A DNA stretch of 64,000 bases from Acidobacteriota bacterium (lineage in GTDB: Bacteria > Acidobacteriota > Vicinamibacteria > Vicinamibacterales > CAVVIG01), in NCBI GenBank assembly GCA_018268955.1, contig JAFDVO010000047.1, positions 1-64,000 of the forward strand, in the 5' to 3' direction. The notes under the pieces were generated by a model. That model searched no databases. It saw only the letters and a list, made by a program, of their open reading frames with translations, and had not been told where the DNA came from. The position numbers and the translations under genes are program-made. Below, one piece after another: positions 583-20,292 of the stretch (its first letter is position 1; every line of letters starts with the position of its first letter).

Positions 583-768
583 GGTCCCTCCGCTTCCCCC
601 GCCTGAGTCCGTCTCGCGTCCGTCGATCAGAGTCCACTTCCGCGACTCGTCACGGGCAACGCGATTGCCGGGATCCCGGCAATCCAGTTGGCGCTCCAGC
701 CCGAACAGTGCAAAATCAGCCCGTTCAGCGTGGCATATCCCGTGCTCGACTGCTGTATGGAGGGGCGG

Positions 769-1236: not shown

Positions 1237-1285
1237 CGGACGGTCGCGGTTCTTATCAGGAAGTCGCAGGAAGCGAGGTTTCATC

Positions 1286-1780: not shown

Positions 1781-1782
1781 CC

Positions 1783-4593
1783 ATGCGCGAAGCCACCCCG
1801 CCCGTCCCGGCTGGCGACACGATCGACAGCCCGCGGCTGGTCCTGCGCGACGGGACGGTGGCTTCCGTGCGTCCGTCCTCGTCCGCGGACCGTGACGCGA
1901 TCCGGCGGTTCTTTCATGAGCTGTCTCCGGAGTCGCGCCGCAACCGGTTCTTCACCTCGTCCGAACCGCCGGAGTCGCTCGTCGATCGCATGGCGGATTC
2001 CAGCGATCCCCGGCAGGCGCTCACGCTGCTGGTTCATCGCTTCCGCACGGACGATGTGCGGCCGGTGGCCGTGGCGTCGTACATGGCGGTCAATGCCACG
2101 AACGCGGAGGTGGCGTTCGCGGTTGCGGACACGTTCCAGGGGCGAGGCGTCGCCACCGTGTTGCTCGAGCGCCTGGCGGTCCACGCGACGCGCCACGGGT
2201 TCCGGAAGTTCCAGGCCAGCACGTTCGCGGACAACCACGCGATGCTCGAGGTGTTCAGGGACTCGGGCTTCGAGATCCGGTCGAAGACGACCGCCGGCGT
2301 GGTGGACCTGCAGCTGTCGCTCACGATGTCGGCCGAGGGGGTGCGCTCATCCGAAGAGCGTGAACGGGCCGCGACAGCCGCGTCACTCGCGCCGCTGCTG
2401 AAGCCCGCATCGGTCGCCGTGGTTGGCGTCTCGCGGGACGATCGGACCAGCATCGGCCGTCGGGTCTTCGATGCGCTGCGCGCGGGCGGGTTCACCGGCC
2501 CGATTCACCCGGTCAACCCGCACGCTGACGCGATCGACGGCGTGCCGTGTCATGGCTCCGCGCGAGCACTGCCACGCGGCATTGACCTCGCGGTCATCGC
2601 CGTGCCCGCGCCCCTCGTCCTCGCCGCCGTCGACGACTGCGCGGCAGCGGGCGTCAAGTCGCTGGCCGTCATCTCGGCCGGCTTCGCAGAGGCCGGGGAC
2701 CAGGGACGGGCGCGGCAGGACGAGCTGGTCGAGCGCGTCCGAAACCACGGGATGCGCATGGTGGGGCCCAATTGCATGGGGGTCCTGAATGCGGCCACGG
2801 ACGTCCGGATGAATGCGTCCTTCTCGCCCGCCATGCCCGCGAGCGGACATGTGTCGCTGCTCTCCCAGAGCGGCGCGCTGGGCATTGCCATCATCGAACT
2901 CGCGACGGAGCGTGGCGTCGGCCTGTCCACGTTCGTCAGCGTTGGCAACAAGGCTGACGTGTCCGGCAACGACCTCCTGCAGTATTGGGAGCGCGATTCG
3001 GACACGTCAGTGATGCTGCTGTACCTCGAATCGTTCGGCAATCCGCGGCGCTTCGCGCGGCTCGCCCGCCGCATCGCGCGCAGCAAGCCGATCGTCGCGG
3101 TGAAGGCCGGGCGCACGAGCGCCGGAGTACGTGCCGCTGGCAGCCACACGGCAGCGATGGCGGCGAGTGACGTCGCCGTGAACGCGCTCTTCCAGCAGTC
3201 AGGGGTGATTCGGGCGGACACCATCGACGAGATGTTCGACATTGCCGCCTGCCTCGAGGCGCAGCCGTTGCCCGCAGGCGCCCGGGTCGGGATCGTGACG
3301 AATGCCGGCGGCCCTGGGATCCTGGCGGTGGATGCCTGCGTCGCGGCCGGGTTGCAGGTCGTGGAGTTCGGCGCCGACACGCGGGCGCGTCTCCGTGCGT
3401 TCCTCCCGGCTGAAGCCAACATCAGCAACCCCGTGGACATGATTGCGTCCGCCGGTCCCGCGGAGTTCCGTCGCACCGTCGAGGTCGTCCTGACTGCCGG
3501 CGAAGTGGATGCACTCATCGTGATCTACACGCCTGTGTATCCGGAGACGCAGGCGGCCACGCACGCCGCGATTGCCGCGGGCGTCGCTGCAGGCCGTGCA
3601 GCCGGAGCCACGGGCAAGCCGGTGCTCGCGTGCCTCATGGCGGAACGGGGCACCCTGATGCCAATGGCGGTCGCGAAGGGCTCTGGCGAGCCCTCGGGGG
3701 AGCCACTCGAGCACGTGCCCGTGTACGGATTCCCGGAGAACGCGGCCCGAGCCCTTGGCAGGATCGCCGCGTACGCGGCATGGCGTGCCCAGCCACCGGC
3801 CCTCTATTGGAGCTTCGACGACATCCGGCCGGATGAAGCCCGCGATCTGTGCCGCGCCATCGTGGAGTCCCGCGGCAACGCGTGGCTCACGCCCGAGGAG
3901 ACCCGCCGGGTCCTGCACGCGTTCGGCCTGCCGCTGCTGCCGACCGTCCTCGCGCGGAGCGCGGACGAAGCGGCCGCGCTCGCCGCGGTCTTCGGCTACC
4001 CGGTCGTCGCCAAGCTGCAGGCACGCACCCTGCTGCACAAGAGTGACGTCGGGGCCGTGCAGGTCGGGCTCTCGTCTGAACGGGCCGTGCGGGCCGCCTT
4101 CCGGGAGCTCACGGCCGTTGGCGCCGAGCACGGGCCGGTCCATCCGGTCGATGGCGAAGGGGTGGTCATCCAGCCGATGATCGCGGGTGGCGTCGAGACG
4201 ATGATCGGCATCACGGACGATCCGCTGTTCGGCCCGCTGGTGGCGTTCGGGCTGGGTGGCGTGCACGTCGAAGTGCTGGGGGACGTCCGCTTCCGGATCG
4301 CCCCGCTGACGGATCGCGACGCAGACGCCCTGCTCAGCGGCATCCGGGGATACAAGCTGCTCAAGGGGTACCGCGGGCACGCGCCCGCCGACCTCGACGC
4401 GTTGAGGGAACTGCTCCTCCGCGTCGCGCGCCTCGCCGAAGAGGTGCACGAGATCGCCGAGCTGGACCTGAATCCGGTGATCGCCCTGCCGCCGGGCCAG
4501 GGCTGCCGCATCGTGGACGCACGCATCCGCGTCTCGGGCCGCCGCAGCGTCGCCGCCGCCCCTCCTCCACCGAGCACTCCCACCACCGCGTGA
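1783..4593 (+). CDS. GNAT acetyltransferase fused to ADP-forming acyl-CoA synthetase
   Basis: 936 aa. Residues about 15-180 form an N-terminal GNAT domain (QGRGVATVLLERL is the acetyl-CoA loop). Next come a Rossmann CoA-binding domain (about 200-300), succinyl-CoA-ligase-like domains (about 310-640) and a C-terminal ATP-grasp domain (about 690-905, with LLHKSDVGAVQVGL). The architecture matches acetate-CoA ligase (ADP-forming) and Pat-type protein lysine acetyltransferases with GNAT at the N-terminus. The histidine of the GSHT motif (about residue 455), the family's phosphohistidine position, is present, so the synthetase half may be active. Placed next to PFOR it could make acetate and ATP from acetyl-CoA. 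Protein acetylation is the alternative, and the sequence does not decide between them. Confidence 0.85.
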   Translation: MREATPPVPAGDTIDSPRLVLRDGTVASVRPSSSADRDAIRRFFHELSPESRRNRFFTSSEPPESLVDRMADSSDPRQALTLLVHRFRTDDVRPVAVASYMAVNATNAEVAFAVADTFQGRGVATVLLERLAVHATRHGFRKFQASTFADNHAMLEVFRDSGFEIRSKTTAGVVDLQLSLTMSAEGVRSSEERERAATAASLAPLLKPASVAVVGVSRDDRTSIGRRVFDALRAGGFTGPIHPVNPHADAIDGVPCHGSARALPRGIDLAVIAVPAPLVLAAVDDCAAAGVKSLAVISAGFAEAGDQGRARQDELVERVRNHGMRMVGPNCMGVLNAATDVRMNASFSPAMPASGHVSLLSQSGALGIAIIELATERGVGLSTFVSVGNKADVSGNDLLQYWERDSDTSVMLLYLESFGNPRRFARLARRIARSKPIVAVKAGRTSAGVRAAGSHTAAMAASDVAVNALFQQSGVIRADTIDEMFDIAACLEAQPLPAGARVGIVTNAGGPGILAVDACVAAGLQVVEFGADTRARLRAFLPAEANISNPVDMIASAGPAEFRRTVEVVLTAGEVDALIVIYTPVYPETQAATHAAIAAGVAAGRAAGATGKPVLACLMAERGTLMPMAVAKGSGEPSGEPLEHVPVYGFPENAARALGRIAAYAAWRAQPPALYWSFDDIRPDEARDLCRAIVESRGNAWLTPEETRRVLHAFGLPLLPTVLARSADEAAALAAVFGYPVVAKLQARTLLHKSDVGAVQVGLSSERAVRAAFRELTAVGAEHGPVHPVDGEGVVIQPMIAGGVETMIGITDDPLFGPLVAFGLGGVHVEVLGDVRFRIAPLTDRDADALLSGIRGYKLLKGYRGHAPADLDALRELLLRVARLAEEVHEIAELDLNPVIALPPGQGCRIVDARIRVSGRRSVAAAPPPPSTPTTA

Positions 4594-4601
4594 GGTGAGC
4601 C

Positions 4602-5339
4602 GTGCTGCTCGAAGTGTTCGTCGCCGCCCTCGTCAGCGATCTGGCGACGGGGTTGGGTGCGCTGCCGTTTCTCTACTTCGACCGCTTCGAGCAGCGCTGG
4701 TTCGGCATTGCCGGAGGGGTCGCCAGCGGCATGATGCTGTCGGCCTCGGTGTTCGCACTGGCGGACAAGGCCATTCACCGTGGCGGCGCAATACCCGTCA
4801 TCCTCGGGATGCTCGCGGGAGCCCTCTTCTTTGCCGCGACGGCACGCCTCATCGAACAGCGGCACTGGCACCTCGGAGACTGGAGCGAGCGCGACTCGCG
4901 CAAGTCCATCCTCATGATCACCACGATGTTCGTCCACAGCGTGCCGGAAGGGATCGCCATCGGCGTCGGCTATGCGACTGGCGAACTACGCTTCGGACTG
5001 CTGCTGGCGACCGCCATTGCGGTGCACAATATCCCTGAAGGCACGGCCGTCTCGCTCCCGCTGCGGGAGCGTGGCGCCTCAGTCTGGCGCTGCGCCGGGT
5101 ACGCCGTGCTGACGAGCGTTCCACAACCGATCCTCGCGGTGCCCGCGTTCCTGCTCACCTCGTTCTTCCAGCCGCTCGTGGCGCCGTCGCTCGGCTTCGC
5201 GGGAGGCGCCATGATCTTCCTGGTGATGTCTGAACTCCTGCCCGAGAGCCTCGCCACGTGTTCGAGGACCGAAACGGCGTGGAGCGTGACGCTGGGGCTG
5301 GTCGGGATGCTCGGCGTCACCGCGGCGCTCGGACTCTGA
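4602..5339 (+). CDS. ZIP-family divalent metal transporter
   Basis: 245 aa integral membrane protein with about eight hydrophobic segments. The two ZIP metal-site motifs are clear: HSVPEGIAIG in TM4 and HNIPEGTAVSLPL in TM5, both with the His and Glu that bind metal. The family imports Zn(II), Fe(II) or other divalent metals. The GTG start at 4602 follows GAGGTGAG and lies eight bases after the previous stop, so it is probably in the same operon. There is no His-rich loop of note. Substrate is not predictable, though Ni and Fe demand from the nearby hydrogenase and feoAB make metal uptake relevant. Confidence 0.88.
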   Translation: MLLEVFVAALVSDLATGLGALPFLYFDRFEQRWFGIAGGVASGMMLSASVFALADKAIHRGGAIPVILGMLAGALFFAATARLIEQRHWHLGDWSERDSRKSILMITTMFVHSVPEGIAIGVGYATGELRFGLLLATAIAVHNIPEGTAVSLPLRERGASVWRCAGYAVLTSVPQPILAVPAFLLTSFFQPLVAPSLGFAGGAMIFLVMSELLPESLATCSRTETAWSVTLGLVGMLGVTAALGL

Positions 5340-5361
5340 GGCGAGTCTCGCAATTAGTGAA

Positions 5362-5401
5362 TTGGTGAGTTGGTGAGTTGGTGAATTGGTGAATTGGTGA
5401 G
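5362..5401. repeat. Five tandem 8-bp units TTGGTGA(A/G)
   Basis: Five contiguous octamers TTGGTGAG/TTGGTGAA fill the gap between the ZIP gene and the next coding start. It is one of several short degenerate tandem arrays in this window; a related sequence on the opposite strand occurs near 28741-28787. Confidence 0.9.
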
Positions 5402-6360: not shown

Positions 6361-6373
6361 CGCTAGTCTAGCG
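6361..6373. terminator. Palindrome CGCTAGTCTAGCG at convergent gene ends
   Basis: A 6+1+6 perfect palindrome that contains the hypB stop codon and lies between convergent genes. An identical 13-mer occurs at 37179-37191, also between convergent genes. It could form a short hairpin that ends both transcripts, or be a protein-binding site. No T-run is present. Confidence 0.4.
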
Positions 6374-7141
6374 ATGCGCGTGGTGATGATGATGATGGTG
6401 GTGCTCGGCGTGTCCGTCGTGCGCGTCCCCGTGCGCATGATGGTGCGAGGGCGCGGAGACGAGCTTCAGGTCCTCGAGCCACCGCACCCACTCGTCGATG
6501 CCCTGGCCGCTCGTGGCCGATACCGGAATCATCAACGGTTTGGGCATCACCATCGACAGGTTCTCGCGAATGCGGTCGATGCTGATGTCCGGCAGGACGG
6601 AGAGCAGGTCGACCTTCGTGAGCAGCACCAGGTCGGCCTTCCGGAAAATCGTCGGATACTTCAGCGGCTTGTCCTCGCCTTCCGTCACCGACAGCGCCAC
6701 CACGTTCACGTCCTGTCCCAGGTCGTACACGGCCGGACAGACCAGGTTGCCCACGTTCTCGATGAAGAGCACGTCGAGCTCGCGCCAGGGCAGTCGATGC
6801 AGCCCCTTGTGCACCATGTCCGCGTCGAGGTGACAGGCCGATCCGGTGGTGATCGCTTCGGCGGCGATGCCGGCCGCACGCACCCGTCGCGCGTCGTTGT
6901 CCGTCGCGAGGTCCCCCACGAGGACGCCCAGCTTCTTCGACGGCCCCAGCACCCGCGCGGTCGCCTCCAGGACGGCGGTCTTCCCCGCCCCCGGGGACCC
7001 CATCAGGTTGATCACCGCGACCTGGTGATCGTGAAAGTGCTCGCGGTTGTGGCGAGCCGCGCGTTCATTATTGGCAAGAATGCGCTCGTGCACCGCCACA
7101 GGGACGATGTCGCTGTCGCCGCATCCACAGGAATCGCACAT
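6368..7141 (-). CDS. hypB: Hydrogenase nickel incorporation GTPase HypB
   Basis: 257 aa SIMIBI GTPase that delivers nickel to the large hydrogenase subunit. The N-terminus carries the high-affinity metal motif CDSCGCG. The P-loop GSPGAGKT (about residues 48-55), a DLATDNDA switch region, ENVGNLVCP and TKVDL (G4) follow, so all GTPase motifs are intact. The C-terminus is a histidine-rich tail with a run of eight His, at the end opposite to the His-rich region usual in this family. ATG 7141 overlaps the hypA stop as TGATG, implying translational coupling; GTG 7144 is an alternative. It is the last gene of the hydrogenase operon. Confidence 0.97.
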   Translation of the reverse strand: MCDSCGCGDSDIVPVAVHERILANNERAARHNREHFHDHQVAVINLMGSPGAGKTAVLEATARVLGPSKKLGVLVGDLATDNDARRVRAAGIAAEAITTGSACHLDADMVHKGLHRLPWRELDVLFIENVGNLVCPAVYDLGQDVNVVALSVTEGEDKPLKYPTIFRKADLVLLTKVDLLSVLPDISIDRIRENLSMVMPKPLMIPVSATSGQGIDEWVRWLEDLKLVSAPSHHHAHGDAHDGHAEHHHHHHHHAHR

Positions 7142-7482
7142 CACGGCACCTCCAATTCCAGTCGTTCGAGCACTATCTCATCGCCCGAGGCCATCGTCGC
7201 GGGCTTGCCGCACTGATCGCAGGTCAACCGGCGACCCGGCGGGATGTCGCCGTGGCCCTCGGGGCAGCTCCACCGCTCAGGGATCTCCTCGACCTCGAGC
7301 GGCGCCTGCTCGCAGATGGTCTTCACGCGAAACGTGTCGTACGCCGTCTTCAGCAGCGGCACGTCCACACCGGCCGCCCGGCCGATGCGGACGCACACCC
7401 GCTTCACGGCAATCGCCTGACGACGGGCTGCCTGCGACTCGATCTGATCGAACATCGCCTGCACGATGGAGTACTCATGCAT
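7141..7482 (-). CDS. hypA: Hydrogenase nickel metallochaperone HypA (variant zinc finger)
   Basis: 113 aa. It starts MHEYSIVQ; the amino-terminal Met-His-Glu is the nickel site, so ATG 7482 is the right start even though the frame stays open upstream. The structural zinc site is unusual: CPEGH (Cys73, His77) followed by CDQC (Cys88, Cys91). The first CxxC of typical HypA has lost its second Cys, and a His lies one position further on. It works with HypB to insert nickel. It overlaps the crotonase gene by 8 nt upstream and hypB by one base downstream. Confidence 0.95.
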   Translation of the reverse strand: MHEYSIVQAMFDQIESQAARRQAIAVKRVCVRIGRAAGVDVPLLKTAYDTFRVKTICEQAPLEVEEIPERWSCPEGHGDIPPGRRLTCDQCGKPATMASGDEIVLERLELEVP

Positions 7483-8359
7483 GGTGGTCGGCCCCCTGTG
7501 GCCGTGGCCCGGTCGCTGCAGGAAAGCGCGGCGGGCGCTTCTCGAAGAACGCCAGCAGCCCCTCTGCGAATTCAGGACCATTGGCCGCCCGCGCAAGCTC
7601 CTCGAGCTCGCGGTCGAGATGATCGTCGAGCCGGTCCATCCCAGCGGACTGGTTCATCAATTCCTTGGCGATCGCGAACGCACGTGGCGGTCCCTGCGCG
7701 AGCCGCTCGGCCATGGCTGCGACTTCGGCGGCGAAGGGCTCGACCTCGAACACGCGCGTGACGAGCCCGACGTCCCTGGCCTCGTCGGCAGTCAGCCGTG
7801 GGTTGAGGAAGAGCAGTTCGAGCGACCGACGCAGCCCAATGAGCCGCGGCAGCATGAAGGTCGTGCTTTCGGCGCCCGTCAGCGCTGTTTTCGAGTAGGC
7901 CCACTCGAACGAGGCACGCTGCGACGCGACCACGATGTCGCACGCCATGGCGATGCCGAGACCACCCGCGGCCGCGACGCCGTCGACCGCCGCAATAAAT
8001 GGCTTCGGCGCACGGCGGATCTCGGAGATCGCGCTGTGGATGTACTCGAGGATCTGCTTGAACACCTCGCCGTACTGGATCGGTGTCCCCTCCGGCGGGC
8101 GACGGTACTCCGCGCGTGTGAGGTACTCCAGGTCGCCGCTGCTGCCGCCGTTTCGGATGAACTTCAGGTCCGCGCCGCTGCAGAACATGCCGGGCAGCCC
8201 CTGAAGGATCACGACCCTCACGTCCGTGTCCCGCGCCAGGCGAAGCGCTGCGCGCCGAAAGTCCTGCGCGGTCTGCACGTCCATCGCGTTGAAACGCTCG
8301 GGGCGGTTGATGGTAATCACCCCCACCGCGCCACGCTGTTCACTGAGGATCGTCAACAT
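7475..8359 (-). CDS. Crotonase (enoyl-CoA hydratase/isomerase family), candidate HypX C-terminal module
   Basis: 294 aa crotonase-fold protein. It shows RPERFNAMD near the N-terminus, the oxyanion-hole stretch GMFCSGADLKF, AAGGLGIAMACDIVVA, and LTGAES ahead of TTFMLPRLIG. Both acid residues of classical enoyl-CoA hydratase appear absent: Gly in the AAGGLG loop and Tyr in place of the PE motif. Ordinary hydratase activity is therefore doubtful. It sits between a formyltransferase gene and hypA and overlaps hypA by 8 nt. HypX has exactly a formyltransferase-like domain followed by a crotonase domain that releases CO from formyl-CoA, so this gene is a candidate stand-alone CO-releasing module. 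A fatty-acid or CoA-thioester role is the alternative. Confidence 0.85.
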   Translation of the reverse strand: MLTILSEQRGAVGVITINRPERFNAMDVQTAQDFRRAALRLARDTDVRVVILQGLPGMFCSGADLKFIRNGGSSGDLEYLTRAEYRRPPEGTPIQYGEVFKQILEYIHSAISEIRRAPKPFIAAVDGVAAAGGLGIAMACDIVVASQRASFEWAYSKTALTGAESTTFMLPRLIGLRRSLELLFLNPRLTADEARDVGLVTRVFEVEPFAAEVAAMAERLAQGPPRAFAIAKELMNQSAGMDRLDDHLDRELEELARAANGPEFAEGLLAFFEKRPPRFPAATGPRPQGADHHA

Positions 8360-8370
8360 CGTTCATATCC

Positions 8371-8459
8371 CAACTCGGGACTCGGGACTCGGAAGTCAGA
8401 ACCGCACTTCCGACTTCTGACTTCTGCATTCTCACTTCTAACGTCTAACGTCTAACGTC
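8371..8459. repeat. Degenerate 7-bp tandem repeats inside the hyp operon
   Basis: The gap between the formyltransferase and crotonase genes is filled with heptamer-like repeats: ACTCGGG units at 8373 onward, CTTCTGA-like units, and three perfect TAACGTC copies at 8439-8459. It breaks otherwise overlapping gene spacing. No hairpin or gene is seen in it. Confidence 0.85.
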
Positions 8460-8461
8460 CC

Positions 8462-9292
8462 CTATGCGCTTGCCCTCTTGTAGCCGCGCAGCAGTTCGTG
8501 AATGCGCATCGCATCCGGCGGCGTCATGCGCCCCTGCTCGTCGACAAGCCAGGGCATGATGCGCGCGGGGTCCGACGCGCCGAGTTCATCGAGGTCCACT
8601 CGGCCGTCTGCCACCAGCCGCAGCGCCGCGTCGAGGAGCGGACCGGAGGCGTCGCGAATCATCCATTCCTGGTGGGCGTAGGCATACGCCTTCAGCATGT
8701 CGGTCGCGTCCCAATGCCGCGCGCGTGACACGAGCGGCGACACCGGGTACGCCCACGAGCGGACGACCGGTGCGCCGCCGTCGGGTTCATCGTTGACGAG
8801 GTGCACGGTCGCGCTCGTCTCGTGCTGGCCATCGGCAATGGCGTCCCGTACGGCGCGGATGCCCACGTAGGCTGGCCGGTGATCCGCGCGGCGGATGGTC
8901 AGGTCACTGAAGTGCAGGTTCAGAATCCGGTTGCGGAACTGCTCCAGCATGGGGCGGGTCAACAGGTACAGATACCCATCGAGCAGGACCAGGTCAGGAC
9001 GGAAGCCATTCAGCAGGTCCGTCGTGGCCCTGTCGTAGACGCGTCGCGTGTGGAAATCCCGGTACACCTTCGACCCGCGCGCCCCGTAGAAGTCCGCAAT
9101 GCCGTGCTTCACCACGGGAACGCCCTGCGCCGCGATCGCATCGGCGCCAGCCAGGTCCGGCTCGCTCGTCACGGCGCAGACGATTTCGAACGGCATCGCG
9201 TCGCGCTGCTGCGCCTGCAGCAGGTGCAGCAGCCCAGGCGCCCGCCGCGAGCAGAGCACCGCAACCCGGACCGGCGCTTCCCTCGTCAGCAT
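8462..9292 (-). CDS. PurN-like formyltransferase, candidate HypX N-terminal module
   Basis: 276 aa protein of the formyl-tetrahydrofolate-dependent transferase fold. The N-terminal Rossmann strand RVAVLCSRR is followed by RPDLVLLDGYLYLLTRPM and then by the catalytic strip NLHFSDL. The catalytic Asp lies in DEPDGGAPVV. The Asn-x-His and Asp of the PurN active site are therefore present, although the Pro-rich loop after NxH differs. ATG 9292 overlaps the hypE stop by 7 nt, so it is translationally coupled to a hydrogenase maturation gene rather than to purine genes. The inferred role is to move a formyl group from N10-formyl-THF toward formyl-CoA for CO ligand synthesis, together with the adjacent crotonase. 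A purine or other formylation role is not excluded. Confidence 0.85.
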   Translation of the reverse strand: MLTREAPVRVAVLCSRRAPGLLHLLQAQQRDAMPFEIVCAVTSEPDLAGADAIAAQGVPVVKHGIADFYGARGSKVYRDFHTRRVYDRATTDLLNGFRPDLVLLDGYLYLLTRPMLEQFRNRILNLHFSDLTIRRADHRPAYVGIRAVRDAIADGQHETSATVHLVNDEPDGGAPVVRSWAYPVSPLVSRARHWDATDMLKAYAYAHQEWMIRDASGPLLDAALRLVADGRVDLDELGASDPARIMPWLVDEQGRMTPPDAMRIHELLRGYKRASA

Positions 9293-10332
9293 ATGCGTGG
9301 CAGCGGCTCGCCTTCCGGCTCCGCGATGAGACGCCGGCCGAAGGCGGTGTCGAGGACCACCATGCCTGGACGTTCATCCGTGCAGGTGCCGATGATTGCG
9401 GCCTCGCGACCAAGCGGATGGGCACGCAACGCCCGCAGGACCTCTTCGGCGAAGGCGGCCTTGACGCCGATCACGGCCTTGCCCTCGTTGGCGATGAGCA
9501 GCGGATCGACGCCGACCAGCTCGGACACCCCACGCGTTTCCGGCCTTACCGGCAGCGCCTTCTCATCGATCACGATGCCGACGCGGCTCTTCGCGGCCAT
9601 CTCGTGCAGCGCGCTGGCCACGCCACCCCGCGTCGGATCCTTCATCGCGGTGATGACCCGCGGGTCGCGTTTGAGGGCCGCACGGACAAGCCCGTTGAGC
9701 GGCGCCACATCCGACAGCAGCGGCGCATCGAGCGCGAGGCCATGGCGGGTCGCCATCACGGCCATCCCGTGATCGCCGATCGTGCCGGTCACGATGATGC
9801 GGTCACCCACGCTGAGCGTGTTGTCGCGGACGATGAACGGCGTCAGCCCGATGCCGGTCGTGTTGATGACGATCCCGTCGATCTCGCCCTTGCCCATCAC
9901 CTTGGTGTCCCCGGTCAGGATGCGCGCGTGCGCTTCCTCGCAGGCCTGGCGCATCGACGCCAGAATCTGGTCGAGGTCCTTCCGTGGGAAGCCCTCCTCG
10001 AGAATGACGCTGCAGGTCAGCCCCAGCACCTCGGTGACTCCCATCATCGCCAGGTCGTTCACCGTGCCGCAGACAGACAGCCGGCCGATGTCACCACCCG
10101 GGAAGAACGGCGGCTGGATCACGTGCGAGTCCGTGGTCATCACCAGCCAGCGGTCACCCACCCGCACGGCCGCCCCGTCGTCCATCGCCGAGAGGCCGAT
10201 CACGCCCGCCGGTATCTCGGGCTCGAAAGTGAAGGCCTTGTGGAAGGACTCTTCAATCAGGCGGCGCATCGCGCGGCCACCGGCGCCGTGCTTCAGGCCA
10301 ATCCGTTCGTCAGTCGGCACAACGGTGCTCAT
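9286..10332 (-). CDS. hypE: Carbamoyl dehydratase HypE (hydrogenase cyanide ligand synthesis)
   Basis: 348 aa, AIR-synthase-like fold. It has the GLKHGAGGRAMRRLI start, the ATP-binding stretch SAMDDGAAVRVGD, the GGDIGRLSVCGTVNDLAMMG core and MKDPTRGGVAS. It ends in PRIC, placing the C-terminal Cys that is thiocarboxamidated by HypF and dehydrated to thiocyanate. ATG 10332 overlaps the hypD stop as ATGA. Its last codons overlap the start of the formyltransferase gene. It works with HypF, HypC and HypD to build the Fe(CN)2CO unit. Confidence 0.97.
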   Translation of the reverse strand: MSTVVPTDERIGLKHGAGGRAMRRLIEESFHKAFTFEPEIPAGVIGLSAMDDGAAVRVGDRWLVMTTDSHVIQPPFFPGGDIGRLSVCGTVNDLAMMGVTEVLGLTCSVILEEGFPRKDLDQILASMRQACEEAHARILTGDTKVMGKGEIDGIVINTTGIGLTPFIVRDNTLSVGDRIIVTGTIGDHGMAVMATRHGLALDAPLLSDVAPLNGLVRAALKRDPRVITAMKDPTRGGVASALHEMAAKSRVGIVIDEKALPVRPETRGVSELVGVDPLLIANEGKAVIGVKAAFAEEVLRALRAHPLGREAAIIGTCTDERPGMVVLDTAFGRRLIAEPEGEPLPRIC

Positions 10333-11495
10333 GCCATTCCTCCCTCAGGGGTCGGGACGCAGCGGAGGCATCCGTCCGTCGCTGGTGCGCGCAGGTCGGG
10401 AACTCCGCCGTACTGGTGCCAGATCCTGCAGGTGCCTTCGCTGCTCACCATGCAGGCGCCCACCGGCTGGTCGGGCACGCACTCGCGTCCGAACAGCGGG
10501 CAATCGGATGGGGACGCGATGCCGGCCATGATGTTGCCGCAGATGCACTGGCGGACCAGCGTGGATGGGGCGCGATGCCACAGGGCGTTGACGTCGATGG
10601 TGAACCGCTTCCGTGCGTCGACGTGCGCGAACTCGTCACGCAGGCGAAGGTTTCCGTTCGGGATGTGCGCGATGCCGCGCCACCGGCCGCCGATCGGCCT
10701 GAAGACCTTCCAGAGCTGCTCCTGCGCATTCCGGTTGCCTTCGCGCGTGACGCACCGCGGGAACATGTTCGCCACCTCGGCGCGCTTGTCGCGGATCATC
10801 TCGACCAGGCACAGCAGCGCCGCCAGGATGTCCAGCGGCTCGAACCCGGCCACAACGACCGGGATGTGATGCCGGGCCACGAACGGTTCGAAGATGCCTG
10901 ATCCGGTAATCGTCGCGGCGTGTCCAGCTGCCAGGAACCCCTCGACCCTCGTGTCCGGCATCTCGGAGACGATCTCCATCACCGGCGGAATGAACTTGTG
11001 CGCGGAGAGCACGGAGAAGTTCGCCGGCGGGTTGTCGAGCAGCACGGCCGCCGTCGCGACCGCAGTCGTCTCGAACCCCGTGCCGAAGAAGACGACCTCC
11101 TCGCTGCTCTGCCGTGCCAGTTCGACCGCCTGCGCGACGCTGTAGACGACGTCGACCCTGGCGCCAGCGGCGCGGGCGTCGGCGAGCGACCCCGCCGACC
11201 CCGGGACGCGGATCATGTCACCATACGTGGCGACACGCACGCCCTGCAGCGCCAGCGCCACGCCCTCGTCGATCTCGGGCATGTCGGTGATGCACACCGG
11301 GCAGCCAGGCCCCATGATCACGTTGAGCGCACGCGGCAGGGTCGCGCGCAGTCCGAAGCGCGCGATGGCCTGCTCATGGCTGCCGCAGACGTGCATGACC
11401 GACACCGGGTTGCGGCCGATGGCCGACACGGTGCGCTCGAGTGCTTCGCTCAGCTCCCGCGCGCGGGCGGGATCGCGAAATTCAAGCGGGTTCAT
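10329..11495 (-). CDS. hypD: Hydrogenase Fe(CN)2CO assembly scaffold HypD
   Basis: 388 aa iron-sulfur protein. It carries the family motifs MHVCGSHE, GPGCPVCIT, FFGTGFETT and VAGFEPLDIL. A C-terminal Cys-rich segment that binds the 4Fe-4S cluster spans CICGNIMAG, CPLFGREC and the following GTCRIW. Together with HypC it holds the iron while CN and CO ligands are added. It overlaps hypC upstream and hypE downstream by ATGA, so hypC, hypD and hypE form a tightly coupled block. Confidence 0.97.
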   Translation of the reverse strand: MNPLEFRDPARARELSEALERTVSAIGRNPVSVMHVCGSHEQAIARFGLRATLPRALNVIMGPGCPVCITDMPEIDEGVALALQGVRVATYGDMIRVPGSAGSLADARAAGARVDVVYSVAQAVELARQSSEEVVFFGTGFETTAVATAAVLLDNPPANFSVLSAHKFIPPVMEIVSEMPDTRVEGFLAAGHAATITGSGIFEPFVARHHIPVVVAGFEPLDILAALLCLVEMIRDKRAEVANMFPRCVTREGNRNAQEQLWKVFRPIGGRWRGIAHIPNGNLRLRDEFAHVDARKRFTIDVNALWHRAPSTLVRQCICGNIMAGIASPSDCPLFGRECVPDQPVGACMVSSEGTCRIWHQYGGVPDLRAPATDGCLRCVPTPEGGMA

Positions 11496-11779
11496 GACCG
11501 CCCTGCCTCGATCTCGCCGCGCACGTCGGCGGCCATCAGGTCCTCTGGCCCCTGTCCCGTGTTCTCACGGAGCAGCTGCTCGTACAGCTCGAGCGTGGTC
11601 TGCACGTCCTCGCTCGGGATACGACGAATCGCGAAGCCCACGTGGTTGAGCACGTAGTCGCCCACCTGGACCGGCTCGTCGCAGAGATCCAGCCGCACCC
11701 GCCGCTTCACTCCCCAGAAGTCGACCACCGCCGTCATGCCGTCGACCTCCGTGACACATCCCGGAACACCCAGGCACAT
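11492..11779 (-). CDS. hypC: Hydrogenase maturation chaperone HypC
   Basis: 95 aa. It begins MCLGVPG; Cys2 is the iron-ligand carrier residue, which fixes ATG 11779 as the start, and AGGGAGAA lies upstream. The DFWGVKRRVRLDL and GDYVLNHVGFAI strands are typical OB-fold HypC/HybG elements. The last 20 residues are a slightly longer acidic tail than in E. coli HypC. It lies 16 nt after hypF and overlaps hypD. It shuttles the Fe(CN)2CO moiety between HypD and the large subunit. Confidence 0.97.
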   Translation of the reverse strand: MCLGVPGCVTEVDGMTAVVDFWGVKRRVRLDLCDEPVQVGDYVLNHVGFAIRRIPSEDVQTTLELYEQLLRENTGQGPEDLMAADVRGEIEAGRS

Positions 11780-11795: not shown

Positions 11796-14078
11796 CTACG
11801 AAATCTTGGCGATCGCGTTGGCCGCCACCGCCTGTCCGAGCGCAATCCCGCCGTCGCCTGGCGGCACCTGCGCGTGCAACCGAACGTCGACACCAGTCAG
11901 CGCCTCCCGGATCCCTTCGGCCAGCATCGCGTTCTGGAAACACCCACCGCTCGCGACCACGGGCAGCGGACCGGTCGCGTCCATCACGCGCAGCACCACA
12001 GCCGACGTCGCCGCCGCCAGCGTGTTGTGGAACGCTGCCGCGATGACCGCCGCGGGCACGCCACGCGAAGCATCGTCTACCGCTGCGCGTACAGCCGACC
12101 TGAGGTCCAGCTCCATGAGCGGCTGCCGCTCGTCGATGGTGAACGGGTAGGTTCGCCTCGAAGTGCGGTCCGCCACCTGATTCCACTCGAGCGCGACCTG
12201 CCCTTCGAACGCGGCACGACGCCGGTCCAGGAACAGTGCGCCGAAGGCATCGAAGTACCGTCCCACCCCTCGGGCCCGGCTCACATGCACCCCACGCAGA
12301 ATCAGCTGCCGCATCTGCTCGCGTTCCGCCGCCGACACGGAACGCATGAGGCGTTCGGCAGCGTCCGGCAGCTCGCCGTCGTGGGCGTCCAGCAGCAGCG
12401 CAAGTGCGCCGCGCCAGGGCTCGCGCACGGCCGCGTCACCACCGACCAGCGCAATCGGACGGAACGAGGCGAGCCGCTCGAAACGTGCATGGGTCGCGAC
12501 CAGGATCTCGCCGCCCCAGCTCGTGCCGTCCGTCCCGTAGCCGGTCCCGTCGTACGCAATCCCAATCACCCGCCCGTCCAGGCCGTGCTCCGCCATCGCA
12601 GAGACCACGTGCGCATGGTGGTGCTGCACGCGGATCACACGCTCGGGTCGCTGTTCGGCATACCGCGTGGAGAGATAGTCAGGGTGCAGGTCGCACGCCA
12701 CCAGTTCCGGGCGAATGCCGACGAACCGCTGGAAGCGCTCGATGGCGGTCGTGAACGAGTCGTAGGTCTCCAGGTTCTCGAGGTCCCCGATGTGCGGGCC
12801 GAGAAAGGCCTGGGTCCCGGACGCGAGGCAGAAGGTGTTCTTCAGCAGCGCTCCGGTTGCCAACACCGGAGCCGCGAACGGCGTCCGCACGCTGACCGCG
12901 CGCGGAACGTAGCCGCGCGAGCGCCGGACCAGCAGCGGTCCGCCTGCGACAACGGTCGCGACCGAGTCGTCGCAGCGCGTGTGGATCTCCCGGTCGTGCA
13001 GCAGCAGGACATCCGCAATCGCGCCCAGCCTCAGGCGTGCGTCGTCGTTGGTGAAGGCGATCGGCTCATCCGACAGGTTGCCGGAGGTCATCACCAGAGG
13101 GCAGCCAGCGTCGGCGAGCAGCAGGTGATGCAGAGGCGAGTACGGCAGCATCAGCCCCAGCTGCCCGTTGCGGGGCGCAACGGCTTCGGCCAGGCCGCCA
13201 CCGGGTCGCTTCTCCATCAAGACAATCGGGCGCTCAGGCGAGGTCAGCAGGTCGCGGTGAACCGGAGTGACGACGGCGAGTTCCGAGGCCGCGTCCAGGG
13301 TCGGCACCATCACGGCGAGCGGCTTGGCGTCCCGGTGCTTCCGTTCGCGCAGGCGCCGCACTGCTGGTTCCGACGTTGCGTCGCATGCCAGGTGGAAGCC
13401 GCCGATCCCTTTCACGGCGACGATGAGGCCGCGCCTGAGCGCGGCGGCCGCCTCGCCAATCGCGTCGGCAGATGGCGTCCCGTCGTCCTTGCCAGTCCAC
13501 ACCAGCTCCAGCTGCGGCCCACACACCGGACACGCCGTCGGCTGCGCGTGGAATCGACGGTCGAGCACATCCTCGTATTCGTGGCGGCACGGGCCGCACA
13601 TCTCGAACGGCGCCATCGTGGTCGCTGCGCGGTCGTATGGCGCGTCTGTCGCAATCGTGAACCGCGGACCGCAGTTCGTGCAGTTCGTGAAGGGATATCG
13701 GTACCGCCGGTTGGCCGGATCGAAGATGTCCTTCACGCAGTCGTCGCAGGTGGCGAGGTCGGGCGGGATGGAGACGAGGTGCTCGGCAGCGGACGCGCTC
13801 TGCTCGATGACGAACGCCCGGAGCGGCTCGACCGGGATGGCACTGCACTCGAACCCGGCAATGCGTGCGGCGGGAGGCGGCGAGTCGTGAAGCGCGGCTT
13901 CGAACGCGCGCAGCGTCGGCCCATCGCCGAACGCATCGATCGTCACGCCCGAGGCGTCGTTCCAGACGCGCCCGCGAACGCCCGACTGCTGCGCGACGCG
14001 ATAGACCCAGGGGCGGAACCCGACACCTTGCACGGTGCCCCGAATCCGGATGCGCTTCCCCTCCGCAACGCTGGACAT
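11796..14078 (-). CDS. hypF: Carbamoyltransferase HypF
   Basis: 760 aa. Domains in order: acylphosphatase (RIRGTVQGVGFRPWVYRVA, about residues 10-95), a double zinc-finger region (CDDCVKDIFD, CTNCGPRFT, CGPCRHEY, CPVCGPQ), a YrdC-like domain (KGIGGFHLACDA to about 390) and a Kae1-like carbamoyltransferase domain (VQHHHAHVVSAMAEHG, IAYDGTGYG, VASGGCFQNAML). It transfers carbamoyl from carbamoyl phosphate to the HypE C-terminal Cys for cyanide synthesis. ATG 14078, with GAGG upstream, begins directly at the acylphosphatase domain. A 145-nt spacer separates it from the protease gene upstream; I see no gene in that spacer. Confidence 0.96.
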   Translation of the reverse strand: MSSVAEGKRIRIRGTVQGVGFRPWVYRVAQQSGVRGRVWNDASGVTIDAFGDGPTLRAFEAALHDSPPPAARIAGFECSAIPVEPLRAFVIEQSASAAEHLVSIPPDLATCDDCVKDIFDPANRRYRYPFTNCTNCGPRFTIATDAPYDRAATTMAPFEMCGPCRHEYEDVLDRRFHAQPTACPVCGPQLELVWTGKDDGTPSADAIGEAAAALRRGLIVAVKGIGGFHLACDATSEPAVRRLRERKHRDAKPLAVMVPTLDAASELAVVTPVHRDLLTSPERPIVLMEKRPGGGLAEAVAPRNGQLGLMLPYSPLHHLLLADAGCPLVMTSGNLSDEPIAFTNDDARLRLGAIADVLLLHDREIHTRCDDSVATVVAGGPLLVRRSRGYVPRAVSVRTPFAAPVLATGALLKNTFCLASGTQAFLGPHIGDLENLETYDSFTTAIERFQRFVGIRPELVACDLHPDYLSTRYAEQRPERVIRVQHHHAHVVSAMAEHGLDGRVIGIAYDGTGYGTDGTSWGGEILVATHARFERLASFRPIALVGGDAAVREPWRGALALLLDAHDGELPDAAERLMRSVSAAEREQMRQLILRGVHVSRARGVGRYFDAFGALFLDRRRAAFEGQVALEWNQVADRTSRRTYPFTIDERQPLMELDLRSAVRAAVDDASRGVPAAVIAAAFHNTLAAATSAVVLRVMDATGPLPVVASGGCFQNAMLAEGIREALTGVDVRLHAQVPPGDGGIALGQAVAANAIAKIS

Positions 14079-14223
14079 GACGATGCCTCGTTGAGGGGCA
14101 ATACGTCTGCCACACGGATTCGTCCACTTTTGTGTGGATTTCGTCGTCACTTGCCGGAATCCCGGCGGAGGGACTGCGTCGGGATTCGCGGTGGCGCGGA
14201 ATAACCCACGCACCGCGAGTCCG

Positions 14224-14787
14224 TTACAGCTGAGACGTCGCGAGCGAGCCCGCCGGAGTGACGGGCTGCCACCACGGGGCGTCCACGTCTCCGACGGCGT
14301 CACTCGTCCGCGGACGCACGTCGTCACCGTGCTCGGCGAGCACGCGCGCGACCGCGTCGGCTGCCGGGCTGACCGCTGCCGCGAGTGCAGGACTCAGGTC
14401 GAGGCTCATCTGACAGCTCGACGGCACGACTCCAACGATGGTGATGTGCGCTGGCGCACGACCGGCGAACTCCAGTGTGAGGACGCACTCCTTCACGCCC
14501 GGGTCGTGCGGTCCGATCCGGGCGAACGGCGCGTGCCTGGTGAGATCTGCCTTGTCGTAAATCTTCATCGTGCCGGCGGGGAGGTCCGCCTTCACCGTAT
14601 CGACGAAGACGACGTGGTGCGCATCGGTCAGCCACGGTGTGAGGTCGAGGCCGGGTGTGCCGAGGTCGATCACCTCGACGTCCGGCCCGACGACATACCG
14701 TTGCAGGAATGCCCTGACAACGCTCGGGCCGAACCCATCGTCTCCCATCAGTACGTTGCCAAGACCCAGGACATACGTTCGCGCCAT
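14224..14787 (-). CDS. hybD: Hydrogenase maturation protease (HyaD/HybD family)
   Basis: 187 aa endopeptidase that trims the large-subunit C-terminus after nickel insertion. The start VLGLGNVLMGDDGFGP carries the conserved Asp/Glu nickel-sensing position. VFVDTVKADLPAGT and the DPGVKECVLTLEF region with the metal-binding His (IGPHDPG) follow. The C-terminal tail of about 30 residues is longer than in E. coli HybD. It sits directly downstream of the large-subunit gene it acts on, separated by a 134-nt repeat-rich spacer. ATG 14787 is the start that matches the family N-terminus. Confidence 0.93.
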   Translation of the reverse strand: MARTYVLGLGNVLMGDDGFGPSVVRAFLQRYVVGPDVEVIDLGTPGLDLTPWLTDAHHVVFVDTVKADLPAGTMKIYDKADLTRHAPFARIGPHDPGVKECVLTLEFAGRAPAHITIVGVVPSSCQMSLDLSPALAAAVSPAADAVARVLAEHGDDVRPRTSDAVGDVDAPWWQPVTPAGSLATSQL

Positions 14788-14799
14788 TGACCCGCTCCG

Positions 14800-14921: not shown

Positions 14922-16622
14922 CTACAGGGCTTTCACCCGCGCAATCTCGTTGCCTTCGACATCGACAGTGTGAATCGCGCACGCGATACACGGGTCGAAT
15001 GAATGGACCGTCCGCAGCACCTCGAGTGGCCGCTCCGGATCGGCGATCGGGTTGCCGACGAGTGAGGCCTCGTACGGTCCCGCCTGGTCCTGCGCATCGC
15101 GCGGGCCGGCGTTCCACGTGCTTGGCACCACCGCCTGGTAGTTCTTGATCTTGCCGTCCTCGATGACGACCCAGTGCGACAGCGTGCCTCGTGGGGCCTC
15201 ATGGAAGCCGAAGCCCTGCTGCTCGCCTTTCGGGAACACTGGCTCGTTGAAGATGGCGACGTCGCCCTTGCCGATGTTCTCGGCGAGCAACTGCCAGTGC
15301 TTCTGCGCCAGCTCGGAGATGACCGCGCAGCGGATCATGCGCGCGGCATGACGGCCGAGCGTGGAGTGGAGCACGGCCGGCGTCAACTGCGCCCCGGCAA
15401 CCTTGCCCGCGGTCTCGAGCGTCTTCGCCGCCCAGCGCTTCGTGGGCTCGTGTCCCTGCGCGAAGCCGACGAGCACCTGCGCGAGCGGGCCGACCTGCAT
15501 CACCTTGCCGTCAATGCGTGGCGACTTGATCCACGAGTATTTCTTGTTCGCGTCGTACGGCGTGTACTTCGGCACCGTCTCCTCTTCCCACGGGTGCTTC
15601 TGCCACTCGCCGTCGTACCAGGAGTGCGCGATCGACTCGGACACGTTCTTGCGGAAGTACTCGTCCTCGAACGACGTGATCGGCGTGATCTTCGCCAGGT
15701 CGCCGTTGAAGATGGTGCCGCCGGGGAAGTCGAACTGCGTGCCCTTGCTGTCGAGCGGGAGGTCCGGCACGGACAGGTAGTTCGTCACGCCCGAGCCGTG
15801 CTTCAGCCAGTCGGCATACATCGCGCCGATGGCGCAGACGTCCACGAAGTACACCTGCTCGATGAACTGCTGCACCGAGTCGAGCAGGCTCTTCACTTCG
15901 TAGAGCTTTTGCATGTTCAGCGTCGCCTGGTTGTCCAGGTTGATCGCGTTGGCCACGCCGCCCACCGCGAGGTTCTGGATGTTCGGCGTCTTGCTGCCGA
16001 GAATGGCGACAACCTGGTTGACCTTGCGCTGGTAATCGAGCGCCTGGAGGTAGTGCGAGACGGCAAGCAGGTTGACCTCCGGCGACAGCTTCATCGCCGG
16101 GTGCCCCCAGTAGCCGTTGGTGAAGATGCCGAGCTGCCCGCCCTCGACGAACTTCGCGAGACGGCCCTTCACCTGCTCGAACTGCTGGCGGCTGTTCCCG
16201 GGCCAGTCCGAGATGCTCGCGGCGAGCGCGGCGGTCTTCGCCGGGTCCGCCTTGAGCGCCGAGGTGACGTCCACCCAGTCCAGCGCGGAGAGCTGGTAGA
16301 AGTGCACGATGTGGTCGTGCATCGCGTGGGCGGCGATGATGAGGTTCCGGATGTACTGCGCGTTCTTCGGAATCTCGAGCTTCAGCGCGTTCTCGACGGC
16401 CCTCACCGAGGCGATCGCGTGGACCGTCGTGCAGACACCGCAGAACCGCTGTGTGAACACCCAGGCTTCACGCGGGTCACGCCCTTCGAGAATCCGTTCG
16501 ATGCCGCGGAACATCTGACCCGAAGACCAGGCCTTCTTGACCACGCCACCGTCGACCTCGACGTCGATGCGGAGATGGCCCTCGATGCGTGTAATCGGGT
16601 CGACCGTAATGTGCGTACTCAT
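14922..16622 (-). CDS. hybC: [NiFe]-hydrogenase large subunit, group 1c-like (HybC type)
   Basis: 566 aa precursor. Nickel ligands lie in RFCGVC (Cys61, Cys64) and DPCIACAIH (Cys545, Cys548). After His551 comes a 15-residue C-terminal peptide that the protease would remove, the same length as in E. coli HybC. Long runs match HybC from memory, such as HFYQLSALDWVDVTSAL and GIFTNGYWGHPAMKL, which places it with group 1c membrane-bound H2-uptake enzymes. The RICGVC motif has Phe for Ile. Its ATG overlaps the hybB stop (TAATG). It forms the periplasmic dimer with the Tat-exported small subunit and catalyses H2 oxidation to protons and electrons. Confidence 0.97.
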   Translation of the reverse strand: MSTHITVDPITRIEGHLRIDVEVDGGVVKKAWSSGQMFRGIERILEGRDPREAWVFTQRFCGVCTTVHAIASVRAVENALKLEIPKNAQYIRNLIIAAHAMHDHIVHFYQLSALDWVDVTSALKADPAKTAALAASISDWPGNSRQQFEQVKGRLAKFVEGGQLGIFTNGYWGHPAMKLSPEVNLLAVSHYLQALDYQRKVNQVVAILGSKTPNIQNLAVGGVANAINLDNQATLNMQKLYEVKSLLDSVQQFIEQVYFVDVCAIGAMYADWLKHGSGVTNYLSVPDLPLDSKGTQFDFPGGTIFNGDLAKITPITSFEDEYFRKNVSESIAHSWYDGEWQKHPWEEETVPKYTPYDANKKYSWIKSPRIDGKVMQVGPLAQVLVGFAQGHEPTKRWAAKTLETAGKVAGAQLTPAVLHSTLGRHAARMIRCAVISELAQKHWQLLAENIGKGDVAIFNEPVFPKGEQQGFGFHEAPRGTLSHWVVIEDGKIKNYQAVVPSTWNAGPRDAQDQAGPYEASLVGNPIADPERPLEVLRTVHSFDPCIACAIHTVDVEGNEIARVKAL

Positions 16623-18705: not shown

Positions 18706-19833
18706 CTACACCCCCGCTTTCGGCAGCGACGATGGCGGCTCGTCAGGCGCCTGGGAGAGCTTCTTCGAGGCCACATACCCGCCACCGACGAGCGCGCCGA
18801 CGATGGCGCCGCCAACGGCAGTCGCCACGGGGCTGATCGTCCCCTGGTTCGCGTTGATGGGCGGATAGGTGTCGGGCGGAGTCGGGCGGAAGATCTGGAC
18901 GGTCTGGTGCATCGGCATGCGGAACCCGATCTTCTGCTCCGTGCACCCGAAGCACGGGTGTCCGAGGCCGATGGGCCACGCGTCCACCACCTCGCCGAAA
19001 TGCATGACCGAGCAGTTCGCGTGCGTCGCCGGTCCTTTGCACCCCAACTTGTAGAGGCAGTACCCGAGGCGGTGCCCTTCGTCGCCGTACTTCTCGGCGA
19101 AGCGGCCCGCATCGAAGTGCGCGCGCCGTGGGCAGTGCTCGTGGATGGTGCGGCCATACGCGAACTTCGGCCGGTTCTCCTCGTCGAGTTCCGGGAGCGT
19201 CCCGTAGGTCGCGTACTGGAGCACGGTGCCGAGCAGGTTGTACGGGTTCGCGGGGCACCCGGGGATGTTCACCACGGTCTTGCCCTTCAGCACGGCATGC
19301 GCGGGCGACGCACCGGTCGGGTTCGGATCCGCCGACGGCACACCGCCCCACGAGGCGCACGAGCCGATCGCGATGACCGCACCGGCCTTGCCGGCCACGT
19401 CATTCACGATCTCGAGTGCCGTGCGGCCGCCGATCATGCAGTAGATGCCGTCCTCTTTCGTGGGGATCGCCCCTTCGACGATGCAGACGAACTTGCCCGC
19501 GTTCTTCTCCACCGCCGCCTTGAGGGCAGCTTCGGCCTGATGACCCGCGGCCGCAAAGAGCGTTTCGTGATAGTCGAGCGAGATGAGGTCGAGAATGAGC
19601 TCGTCGACACCGGGATGCGAGGTGCGGAGCAGCGACTCGGTGCAGCCCGTACATTCCTGGAACTGGAGCCAGATCACCGACGGCTTCGCGCCACGCTCCG
19701 CGGCCTTGACGAAGTCCTCGGCCGCAAGCGGGCCAAGGCCGACAGCCGCCGCCGCCATGGAGCAGAAGCGCACGAAGTCACGACGGGAGACTTCGCCGAC
19801 GCCCGGGGAGTCGAGAGAGAACGAAGCAAACAA
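18706..19833 (-). CDS. hybO: [NiFe]-hydrogenase small subunit (HybO type), Tat-exported
   Basis: 375 aa. It has a Tat signal (SRRDFVRFC then a hydrophobic stretch). Cluster ligands follow: ECTGCTESLLR near the mature N-terminus, IGSCASWGG, IPGCPANPYN, and the medial/distal region with CPRRAHFDAG, CLYKLGCKGP and CFGCTEQ. A C-terminal hydrophobic segment (ATAVGGAIVGALVGGG) anchors it. I chose the TTG start at 19833 because GGAGG lies five bases before it and the signal begins soon after; no ATG or GTG fits better. It is the first gene of the hydrogenase operon. It carries electrons from the NiFe site to HybA. Confidence 0.95.
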   Translation of the reverse strand: MFASFSLDSPGVGEVSRRDFVRFCSMAAAAVGLGPLAAEDFVKAAERGAKPSVIWLQFQECTGCTESLLRTSHPGVDELILDLISLDYHETLFAAAGHQAEAALKAAVEKNAGKFVCIVEGAIPTKEDGIYCMIGGRTALEIVNDVAGKAGAVIAIGSCASWGGVPSADPNPTGASPAHAVLKGKTVVNIPGCPANPYNLLGTVLQYATYGTLPELDEENRPKFAYGRTIHEHCPRRAHFDAGRFAEKYGDEGHRLGYCLYKLGCKGPATHANCSVMHFGEVVDAWPIGLGHPCFGCTEQKIGFRMPMHQTVQIFRPTPPDTYPPINANQGTISPVATAVGGAIVGALVGGGYVASKKLSQAPDEPPSSLPKAGV

Positions 19834-19918
19834 AGGACACCTCCAAGCGAGGGAGACGCCGGCCAAACGATGCACACCCGCCGGGCACGCGGGCATGTGT
19901 GGATGCGACCTCCTATCG

Positions 19919-19935
19919 AGCAACGGGGGTGCCAG
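19919..19935 (-). promoter_or_regulatory. Sigma-54 (-24/-12) promoter for the hydrogenase operon
   Basis: On the minus strand the sequence reads CTGGCACCCCCGTTGCT. TGGCAC and TTGC are separated by 5 bp, matching the RpoN consensus at all invariant -24/-12 positions. It would start transcription near 19908, giving a leader of about 75 nt before the small-subunit TTG. Sigma-54 control is known for other hydrogenase operons. The required activator is not in the window. Confidence 0.7.
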
Positions 19936-20292
19936 TGACGGTGCTTTGAAAACCAACGTTTTTGTTCGGATTCTGCAAACTATGATCCTGCGCGTCACAA
20001 GCGTCTGCGAGTTTCCGGCGCTCAGCAGGATCGCGGCTGGCGGGTTCTCCCGCAGCCGGGGAACCGGCGCCGATCTTCCGTCGGGCGCAGGCGAACGATC
20101 GCTGGGGACAGCTCGTGCGGGTACGTGTGATCGGCGAGTGGGGCACCATGCCGATCAACGCGGCAGAGCGGGGGGAGGTGCAGGGCGCTGGGCCCACGGT
20201 GGTGGGCGACGGCCATTGGCCACCGTCACGCGCCGACGTGGCGGCGCTGCGGTGCTGACCGCACAGCCCACCAGGGTGGGTGGGGTGTCTGA
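19936..20292. other. Intergenic region between Hsp20 and hydrogenase operon
   Basis: About 350 bp without a gene. It would hold the enhancer-binding site of the sigma-54 activator and the end of the hsp20 transcript. Two small hairpins are visible: GCCCAC/GTGGGC near 20190-20205 and CCCACC/GGTGGG near 20270-20283. The second lies just after the hsp20 stop on the minus strand. I found no clear activator palindrome. Confidence 0.5.

Follow-up and report, generated by a model that had tools for sequence, protein, structure and literature searches.

To our knowledge, formation of the CO ligand of [NiFe]-hydrogenase has been demonstrated for no enzyme other than HypX. The protein converts formyl-THF and CoA into formyl-CoA, which in turn yields CO and CoA (reviewed in PMC12134894). 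In the A. aeolicus enzyme, Tyr416 and Glu426 have been proposed to decarbonylate formyl-CoA, and C. necator mutants at the equivalent Tyr/Glu residues are HypX-minus (PMC6802093). Where organisms that lack HypX obtain their CO is an open question (PMC12134894), and no account of a split HypX was found in the open-access literature searched.

The stretch of DNA analysed here (the window, 64,000 nucleotides) is contig C41 of a 4.77-Mb Acidobacteriota genome that is 99.5% complete. Between hypE and hypA it carries one gene for a formyltransferase, FTR, and one for a crotonase, ECH. The pair shares with HypX/HoxX (C. necator; A. aeolicus 6J0P) the formyltransferase and crotonase folds and the location in a hyp operon, and in Sulfurimonas a fused HypX occupies the same slot, hypE-hypX-hypA. 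ECH has the catalytic Tyr and Glu of HypX, and FTR has its His and Asp. Unlike HypX, the pair consists of two genes 102 nt apart and not of one polypeptide, FTR is of the PurN type and lacks an OB subdomain, whereas the HypX N-domain is of the Fmt/FDH type and has one, and ECH can occur without a formyltransferase. Because the genes are unfused and the formyltransferase comes from another subfamily, the pair is HypX-like rather than a member of HypX.

The hyp operon and its surroundings

The genes of the operon are arranged on the minus strand in the order hypF-C-D-E-FTR-ECH-A-B (Table 1). Pfam/NCBIfam searches identify the neighbours of FTR and ECH as HypA, B, C, D, E and F, the maturation protease and the [NiFe] large subunit. 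Upstream of the hyp genes, on the same strand, lie the small subunit, an FeS protein, a membrane subunit and the large subunit of a Hyd-2-type [NiFe]-hydrogenase, together with the maturation protease. The earlier note had described a formyltransferase and a crotonase as two genes of this operon; their coordinates, strand and neighbours are borne out, and the overlaps of the FTR start with the hypE stop and of the ECH end with the hypA start are present.

Table 1. Positions of the FTR and ECH genes, their key codons and the neighbouring hyp and hydrogenase genes in the window
Feature	Position	Strand	Remark
FTR: PurN-type formyltransferase, 276 aa; proposed formyl-THF:CoA formyltransferase	8462..9292	-	between hypE and ECH
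ECH: stand-alone crotonase, 294 aa; proposed formyl-CoA decarbonylase	7475..8359	-	between FTR and hypA
ECH Tyr155 codon	7895..7897	-	aligns with HypX Tyr416 (A. aeolicus) / Tyr439 (C. necator); column of the second hydratase Glu in classical crotonases
ECH Glu164 codon, in GAES	7868..7870	-	aligns with HypX Glu426/Glu449
FTR Asn125 codon (catalytic Asn of N-x-H, by alignment)	8918..8920	-	
FTR His127 codon (catalytic His, by alignment)	8912..8914	-	
FTR Asp130 codon (H-x-x-D)	8903..8905	-	invariant in 16/16 FTRs; Leu in 18/18 PurN
FTR Asp171 codon (catalytic Asp, by alignment)	8780..8782	-	corresponds to PurN Asp144 / HypX Asp109
Repeat-rich spacer, 102 nt, FTR to ECH	8360..8461	.	
hypE	9286..10332	-	stop overlaps FTR start by 7 nt
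hypA	7141..7482	-	start overlaps ECH end by 8 nt
hypB	6368..7144	-	
hypD	10329..11495	-	
hypC	11492..11779	-	
hypF	11796..14105	-	likely start; ORF runs on upstream to 14327
Hydrogenase maturation protease, HyaD/HybD type	14224..14790	-	
[NiFe]-hydrogenase large subunit, Hyd-2 (HybC) type	14922..16622	-	
[NiFe]-hydrogenase small subunit, Hyd-2 (HybO) type	18706..19998	-	start uncertain; proximal-cluster motif CTGCTES

Short degenerate tandem repeats occur at 8380-8461, within the spacer between FTR and ECH (example unit gacgttagacgttagacgttaga), and at 5352-5400, 37260-37346 and 54038-54120, mostly in apparent intergenic spacers. The regions around the hydrogenase (688-5339 and 20293-27128) encode two universal stress proteins, a GNAT plus CoA-ligase/ATP-grasp fusion, a ZIP transporter and Hsp20, as well as a radical SAM/SPASM protein, FeoB, a NapC-like multihaem cytochrome and cytochrome b561. 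From this predicted gene content, the surroundings look like a low-oxygen or energy-stress island.

The hydrogenase itself is of the standard 4-Cys Hyd-2 (HybOABC) type, and its small subunit carries CTGCTES and not the extra-cysteine form of O2-tolerant enzymes. A parallel had been drawn with HypX of aerobic hydrogenase producers; it holds for the HypX Tyr/Glu signature found in ECH, but not for the hydrogenase, which is not of the O2-tolerant kind. Heme-copper oxidase-type proteins are encoded in 16/16 genomes tested, with five matches in this genome, so the hosts can probably meet oxygen. A possible role of the FTR/ECH system is in maturation at low oxygen, as opposed to full air.

Family assignment and catalytic residues

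FTR matches Formyl_trans_N (2.6e-21; Pfam/NCBIfam), and its nearest named family is PurN, with a score of 79.6 bits that lies well under the TIGR00639 cut-off of 150.1. In hhalign comparisons it aligns with PurN at E 5.6e-32, as against 5e-4 with the HypX N-domain. A fold search with its AlphaFold model (pLDDT 79.8) returned PurN structures as the best matches (VIA Z up to 22.0) and Fmt, FDH and ArnA as weaker ones (Z about 14-16); HypX is absent among the listed VIA matches, which proves nothing by itself. The C-terminal part of the model is mainly helical, and the six-stranded barrel that forms the OB subdomain of the HypX N-domain is not seen in it. By these sequence and model comparisons, FTR is a PurN relative and not of the HypX N-domain type, and this difference in subfamily argues that the formyltransferase half was recruited independently.

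With PurN, the GAR transformylase, FTR shares the fold and the catalytic Asn-His-Asp; Asn125, His127 and Asp171 are all present, in agreement with the Asn-x-His and Asp recognized earlier. It differs from PurN in the GSN phosphate-binding loop and in an insertion of about 8 residues after the catalytic His, at the start of which stands the invariant Asp130 (His+3). The GAR-phosphate loop SGRGSN is found in 18/18 PurN sequences and in 0 of the FTRs that cover the region, where CSxRAPG or a similar stretch takes the place of GSN. The lack of this loop suggests that the acceptor of FTR is probably not GAR. Moreover, a separate PurN-type match is present in each of nine closely related FTR-bearing genomes, so a PurN-type gene coexists with FTR in the same genome. 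Against the HypX triad His74/Asp80/Asp109, His127 and Asp171 of FTR align, whereas an invariant Asp stands at His+3 and not at His+6, in an active-site loop (129-144) that has a pLDDT under 50 and is unreliable in the model; FTR also keeps the Asn of N-x-H, which HypX lacks. As a conjecture, Asp130 may play a role similar to that of HypX Asp80, which holds the catalytic His.

ECH matches ECH_1 (5.6e-48; Pfam/NCBIfam) and falls under every equivalog cut-off shown. Its nearest relatives by similarity are enoyl-CoA hydratase/PaaG and PRK07511-like crotonases, with which it shares the crotonase fold. Unlike them, it lacks both hydratase glutamates, having Gly135 and Tyr155 at the columns of Glu144 and Glu164 of the rat enzyme, and carries Gly162-Ala163-Glu164 ahead of LPR in place of Pro-Asp-Gly or a similar segment; both features had been read correctly in the earlier note. 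Both hydratase Glu residues are present in L036, a canonical crotonase paralog from this genome. The Tyr plus Gly-x-Glu signature at the HypX catalytic columns is present in 17/17 ECH and 11/11 HypX C-domains and in 0/35 other aligned crotonases. HypX residue numbering was verified by alignment to PDB chain 6j0p, and the C. necator pHG1 sequence was taken from NZ_CP039289. Seven of the best-matching plasmid sequences for the motif segment all have Asp instead of Glu (signature 0/7), which brings the other crotonases to 0/42 in total. The warning that GAES also occurs in generic members of the subfamily is therefore not supported, since GAE is found in none of these 42 and is not generic in this sample. 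Several HypX proteins (Kitasatospora, Acaryochloris, Mycetohabitans, Sulfurimonas) lack a one-residue insertion and have the same motif spacing as ECH.

The similarity of ECH to HypX extends beyond the motif. When a HypX C-domain HMM was run over 52 crotonases, the first 14 places all went to the ECH family, and with the motif region masked the ECH mean was 43.6 versus 31.1 bits; identity between ECH and the HypX C-domain is 28-30%. The profile comparison that had been suggested for both proteins thus sides FTR with PurN and ranks ECH on top. In a maximum-likelihood tree from which the motif columns were removed, ECH and HypX share one side of a branch with support of 93/100, and the alternative tree, in which ECH groups with other crotonases, has a p-AU of 0.49 and is not rejected. 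Common origin and convergence of ECH and the HypX C-domain are both compatible with these AU tests. Of the proposal that the system is independent or ancestral, the independent origin stands for the formyltransferase, as a member of the PurN subfamily; for the crotonase, the best tree favours kinship with HypX without rejecting the alternatives. The AlphaFold model of ECH is poor (pLDDT 62.7) and was left out of the fold search.

Occurrence across Acidobacteriota genomes

Two surveys were carried out, one of 60 relatives and one of 396 Acidobacteriota genomes, most of which are MAGs. True FTR orthologs (E < 1e-60) occur in 8/60 relatives; seven of these have an intact ECH after FTR, and in the eighth, G024, only the first 66 codons of ECH remain. 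The two are separate ORFs in the relatives examined, and the order hypE-FTR-ECH-hypA-hypB is kept wherever the contig reaches far enough. Over the 396 genomes, a search with the FTR profile yields 11 clear members and one weak, unrelated match. A candidate FTR in G378 (E 3e-21) was discarded, as only its middle part aligns and no hyp genes lie nearby. The ECH profile finds 13/396 genomes from 8 families, with members well set off from other crotonases (E <= 1e-130 versus 1e-59 and worse), and every ECH copy sits inside a hyp operon. HypD is present in 13/13 ECH genomes, compared with 185/396 in the whole sample (Fisher p 4e-5, not corrected for relatedness).

Over both surveys, FTR and intact ECH adjoin in 13 genomes and in two operon orders. 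The second order, hypD-FTR-ECH-hypE, is found in one family (G070, G096, G108) and indicates that FTR and ECH moved as a unit. At ten loci, their pairwise distances correlate with r = 0.93, more closely than those of any other operon pair tested. Identity to the window proteins is 62-72% for ECH and 42-55% for FTR, and the recurrence of the arrangement in many genomes and several families across this range argues for more than chance. Finding the pair in genomes without [NiFe]-hydrogenases had been named as counter-evidence, and an intact pair was never found without HypD; like HypX, it is encoded with hyp genes, and it is confined to HypD genomes save for one degenerate FTR (G098). In three genomes with a related HypD (63-73% identity), neither FTR nor ECH lies at the hyp locus, which suggests that the pair is accessory, as HypX is.

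The statement that no fused hypX accompanies the pair holds well past the window. In this genome the sole match to full-length C. necator HypX is ECH, and fused HypX was found in none of the ECH-bearing genomes of the 396-genome sample. Fused HypX occurs in 2/396 Acidobacteriota genomes, neither of which has ECH, numbers too small to judge exclusion. Both proteins (L094 and L095, in G205 and G064) are 55-56% identical to C. necator HypX.

A contig scan with the FTR alignment and strict patterns returned seven loci, all from Acidobacteria MAGs. In a plasmid search, FTR gave PurN-like matches only and ECH gave no crotonase above 41%. The best plasmid relative of HypD (10329-11495) is L023 from the haloarchaeon Natrarchaeobaculum sulfurireducens, at 59% identity, and other plasmid-borne HypD proteins reach about 38%. 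This similarity suggests a hyp cluster lineage common to Acidobacteria and Natrialbaceae, perhaps by transfer. In the plasmid hyp operon of N. sulfurireducens, FTR and ECH are both absent.

Proposed function and unequal retention of the two genes

The reading preferred here, with a probability of roughly 0.7, is that FTR and ECH jointly work as a HypX-like formyl-THF decarbonylase made of two proteins and produce the CO ligand of the Fe(CN)2CO site, with a formyltransferase half recruited independently from PurN and with ECH as the core element. This reading is based on the operon location, recurrence and co-inheritance of the pair, the absence of fused HypX and the common catalytic-residue signature. 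In the first step, FTR would move a formyl group from N10-formyl-THF to the CoA thiol by means of Asn125, His127 and Asp171; CoA is a putative acceptor. ECH would then bind formyl-CoA in its crotonase fold and release CO and CoA, with Tyr155/Glu164 as the general base, by likeness to the role proposed for HypX Tyr416/Glu426. Finally, the HypC-HypD scaffold encoded by neighbouring genes would take up the CO. Several points count against this reading: Hyd-2 of E. coli matures without HypX and the hydrogenase here is of the Hyd-2 type; in genomes that have ECH and no working FTR, formyl-CoA would need another enzyme; three genomes with a related HypD have neither gene at the hyp locus; the tree is also compatible with separate origins of ECH and the HypX C-domain; and the FTR model is unreliable in the active-site loop.

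The two genes are not retained equally. In three genomes (G030, G315, G323), ECH lies in the hyp operon and no FTR was found, and in a fourth (G086) ECH is in the operon and an FTR copy lacking the catalytic Asn and Asp lies elsewhere. Among the surveyed FTR copies, no functional-looking one was seen without ECH. Of the FTRs that adjoin an intact ECH, 13/13 retain Asn125, His127 and Asp171, and of the others 3/3 carry changes (p 0.0018, from a small and related sample); in these three (L029, L057, L059), Asp171 is changed in all and Asn125 in two as well. ECH thus persists in four genomes without a working FTR and appears to be the core part, and loss of FTR residues away from intact ECH is the pattern expected if FTR is useful only with ECH, while ECH can draw on another source of formyl-CoA. 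As an equivalent of HypX, the pair is accordingly upheld by operon and signature, but it is not obligate. A wider but more tentative proposal, for which the odds are somewhat less than even, makes ECH a stand-alone formyl-CoA decarbonylase that is served by a PurN-derived partner in some lineages and by another formyl-CoA source in others, that supplies CO to a standard, oxygen-sensitive-type Hyd-2, and that could either be the ancestor of HypX before fusion or have been invented in parallel.

Three loci illustrate how FTR departs from the intact arrangement. At L029 (2213-3910, G024:C258), which has the 66-codon ECH, hypA is undetected before hypB and Asp171 of FTR is replaced by Glu, a state that reflects either degeneration or an assembly error. 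L057 (6812-10517, G098:C2) is a hypF-FTR-hypB remnant in a 99% complete genome with no detectable HypD; its FTR, without the catalytic Asn and Asp, is an apparent relic in a genome that has apparently lost hydrogenase maturation. At L059 (8073-9211, G086:C45), a second hypC-like gene adjoins the degenerate FTR paralog (Asn and Asp lost), away from the main hyp operon, and the locus is possibly repurposed or decaying.

The genomes that have ECH and no working FTR, the want of a functional-looking FTR without ECH and the better conservation of ECH speak for a different division of labour, in which ECH alone releases CO, using formyl-CoA that mostly has other cellular sources, and FTR adds to the supply without being essential. 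This is unlikely, given that no other source of formyl-CoA was identified and that FTR stands intact right beside ECH and is co-inherited with it in 13 genomes; the absence of FTR from three near-complete assemblies could also partly be due to gaps. It is quite unlikely, too, that the two genes belong to the operon for another purpose, with FTR acting as a PurU-like formyl-THF hydrolase or formylating another acceptor and ECH working on an unrelated acyl-CoA. FTR does score against PurN and, more weakly, PurU models, crotonases are functionally diverse, and CoA is a putative acceptor. However, ECH is strictly tied to hyp operons, its HypX Tyr/Glu signature appears in no other sampled crotonase, and the pair comprises exactly the two activities that are fused in HypX. 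That a housekeeping PurN and a beta-oxidation gene merely happen to sit in the operon is highly improbable: both proteins come from large common superfamilies, but a separate PurN exists in FTR-bearing genomes, synteny conserved over several families and two gene orders contradicts chance linkage, and the two evolve in a correlated manner.

The most likely conclusion, drawn from sequence comparison, is that in several soil and groundwater Acidobacteria separate FTR and ECH proteins together do the job of HypX. If this is true, evolution would have found a second way of making the CO ligand of the hydrogenase iron. A two-gene version would mean that the formyl-CoA route can do without a fused protein and would allow its half-reactions to be studied apart, with a stand-alone crotonase available for the unusual decarbonylation of formyl-CoA. 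Genomes with ECH only would point to a third arrangement, and a crotonase with Tyr/Gly-x-Glu in a hyp operon would provide an annotation rule for finding further CO-ligand systems.
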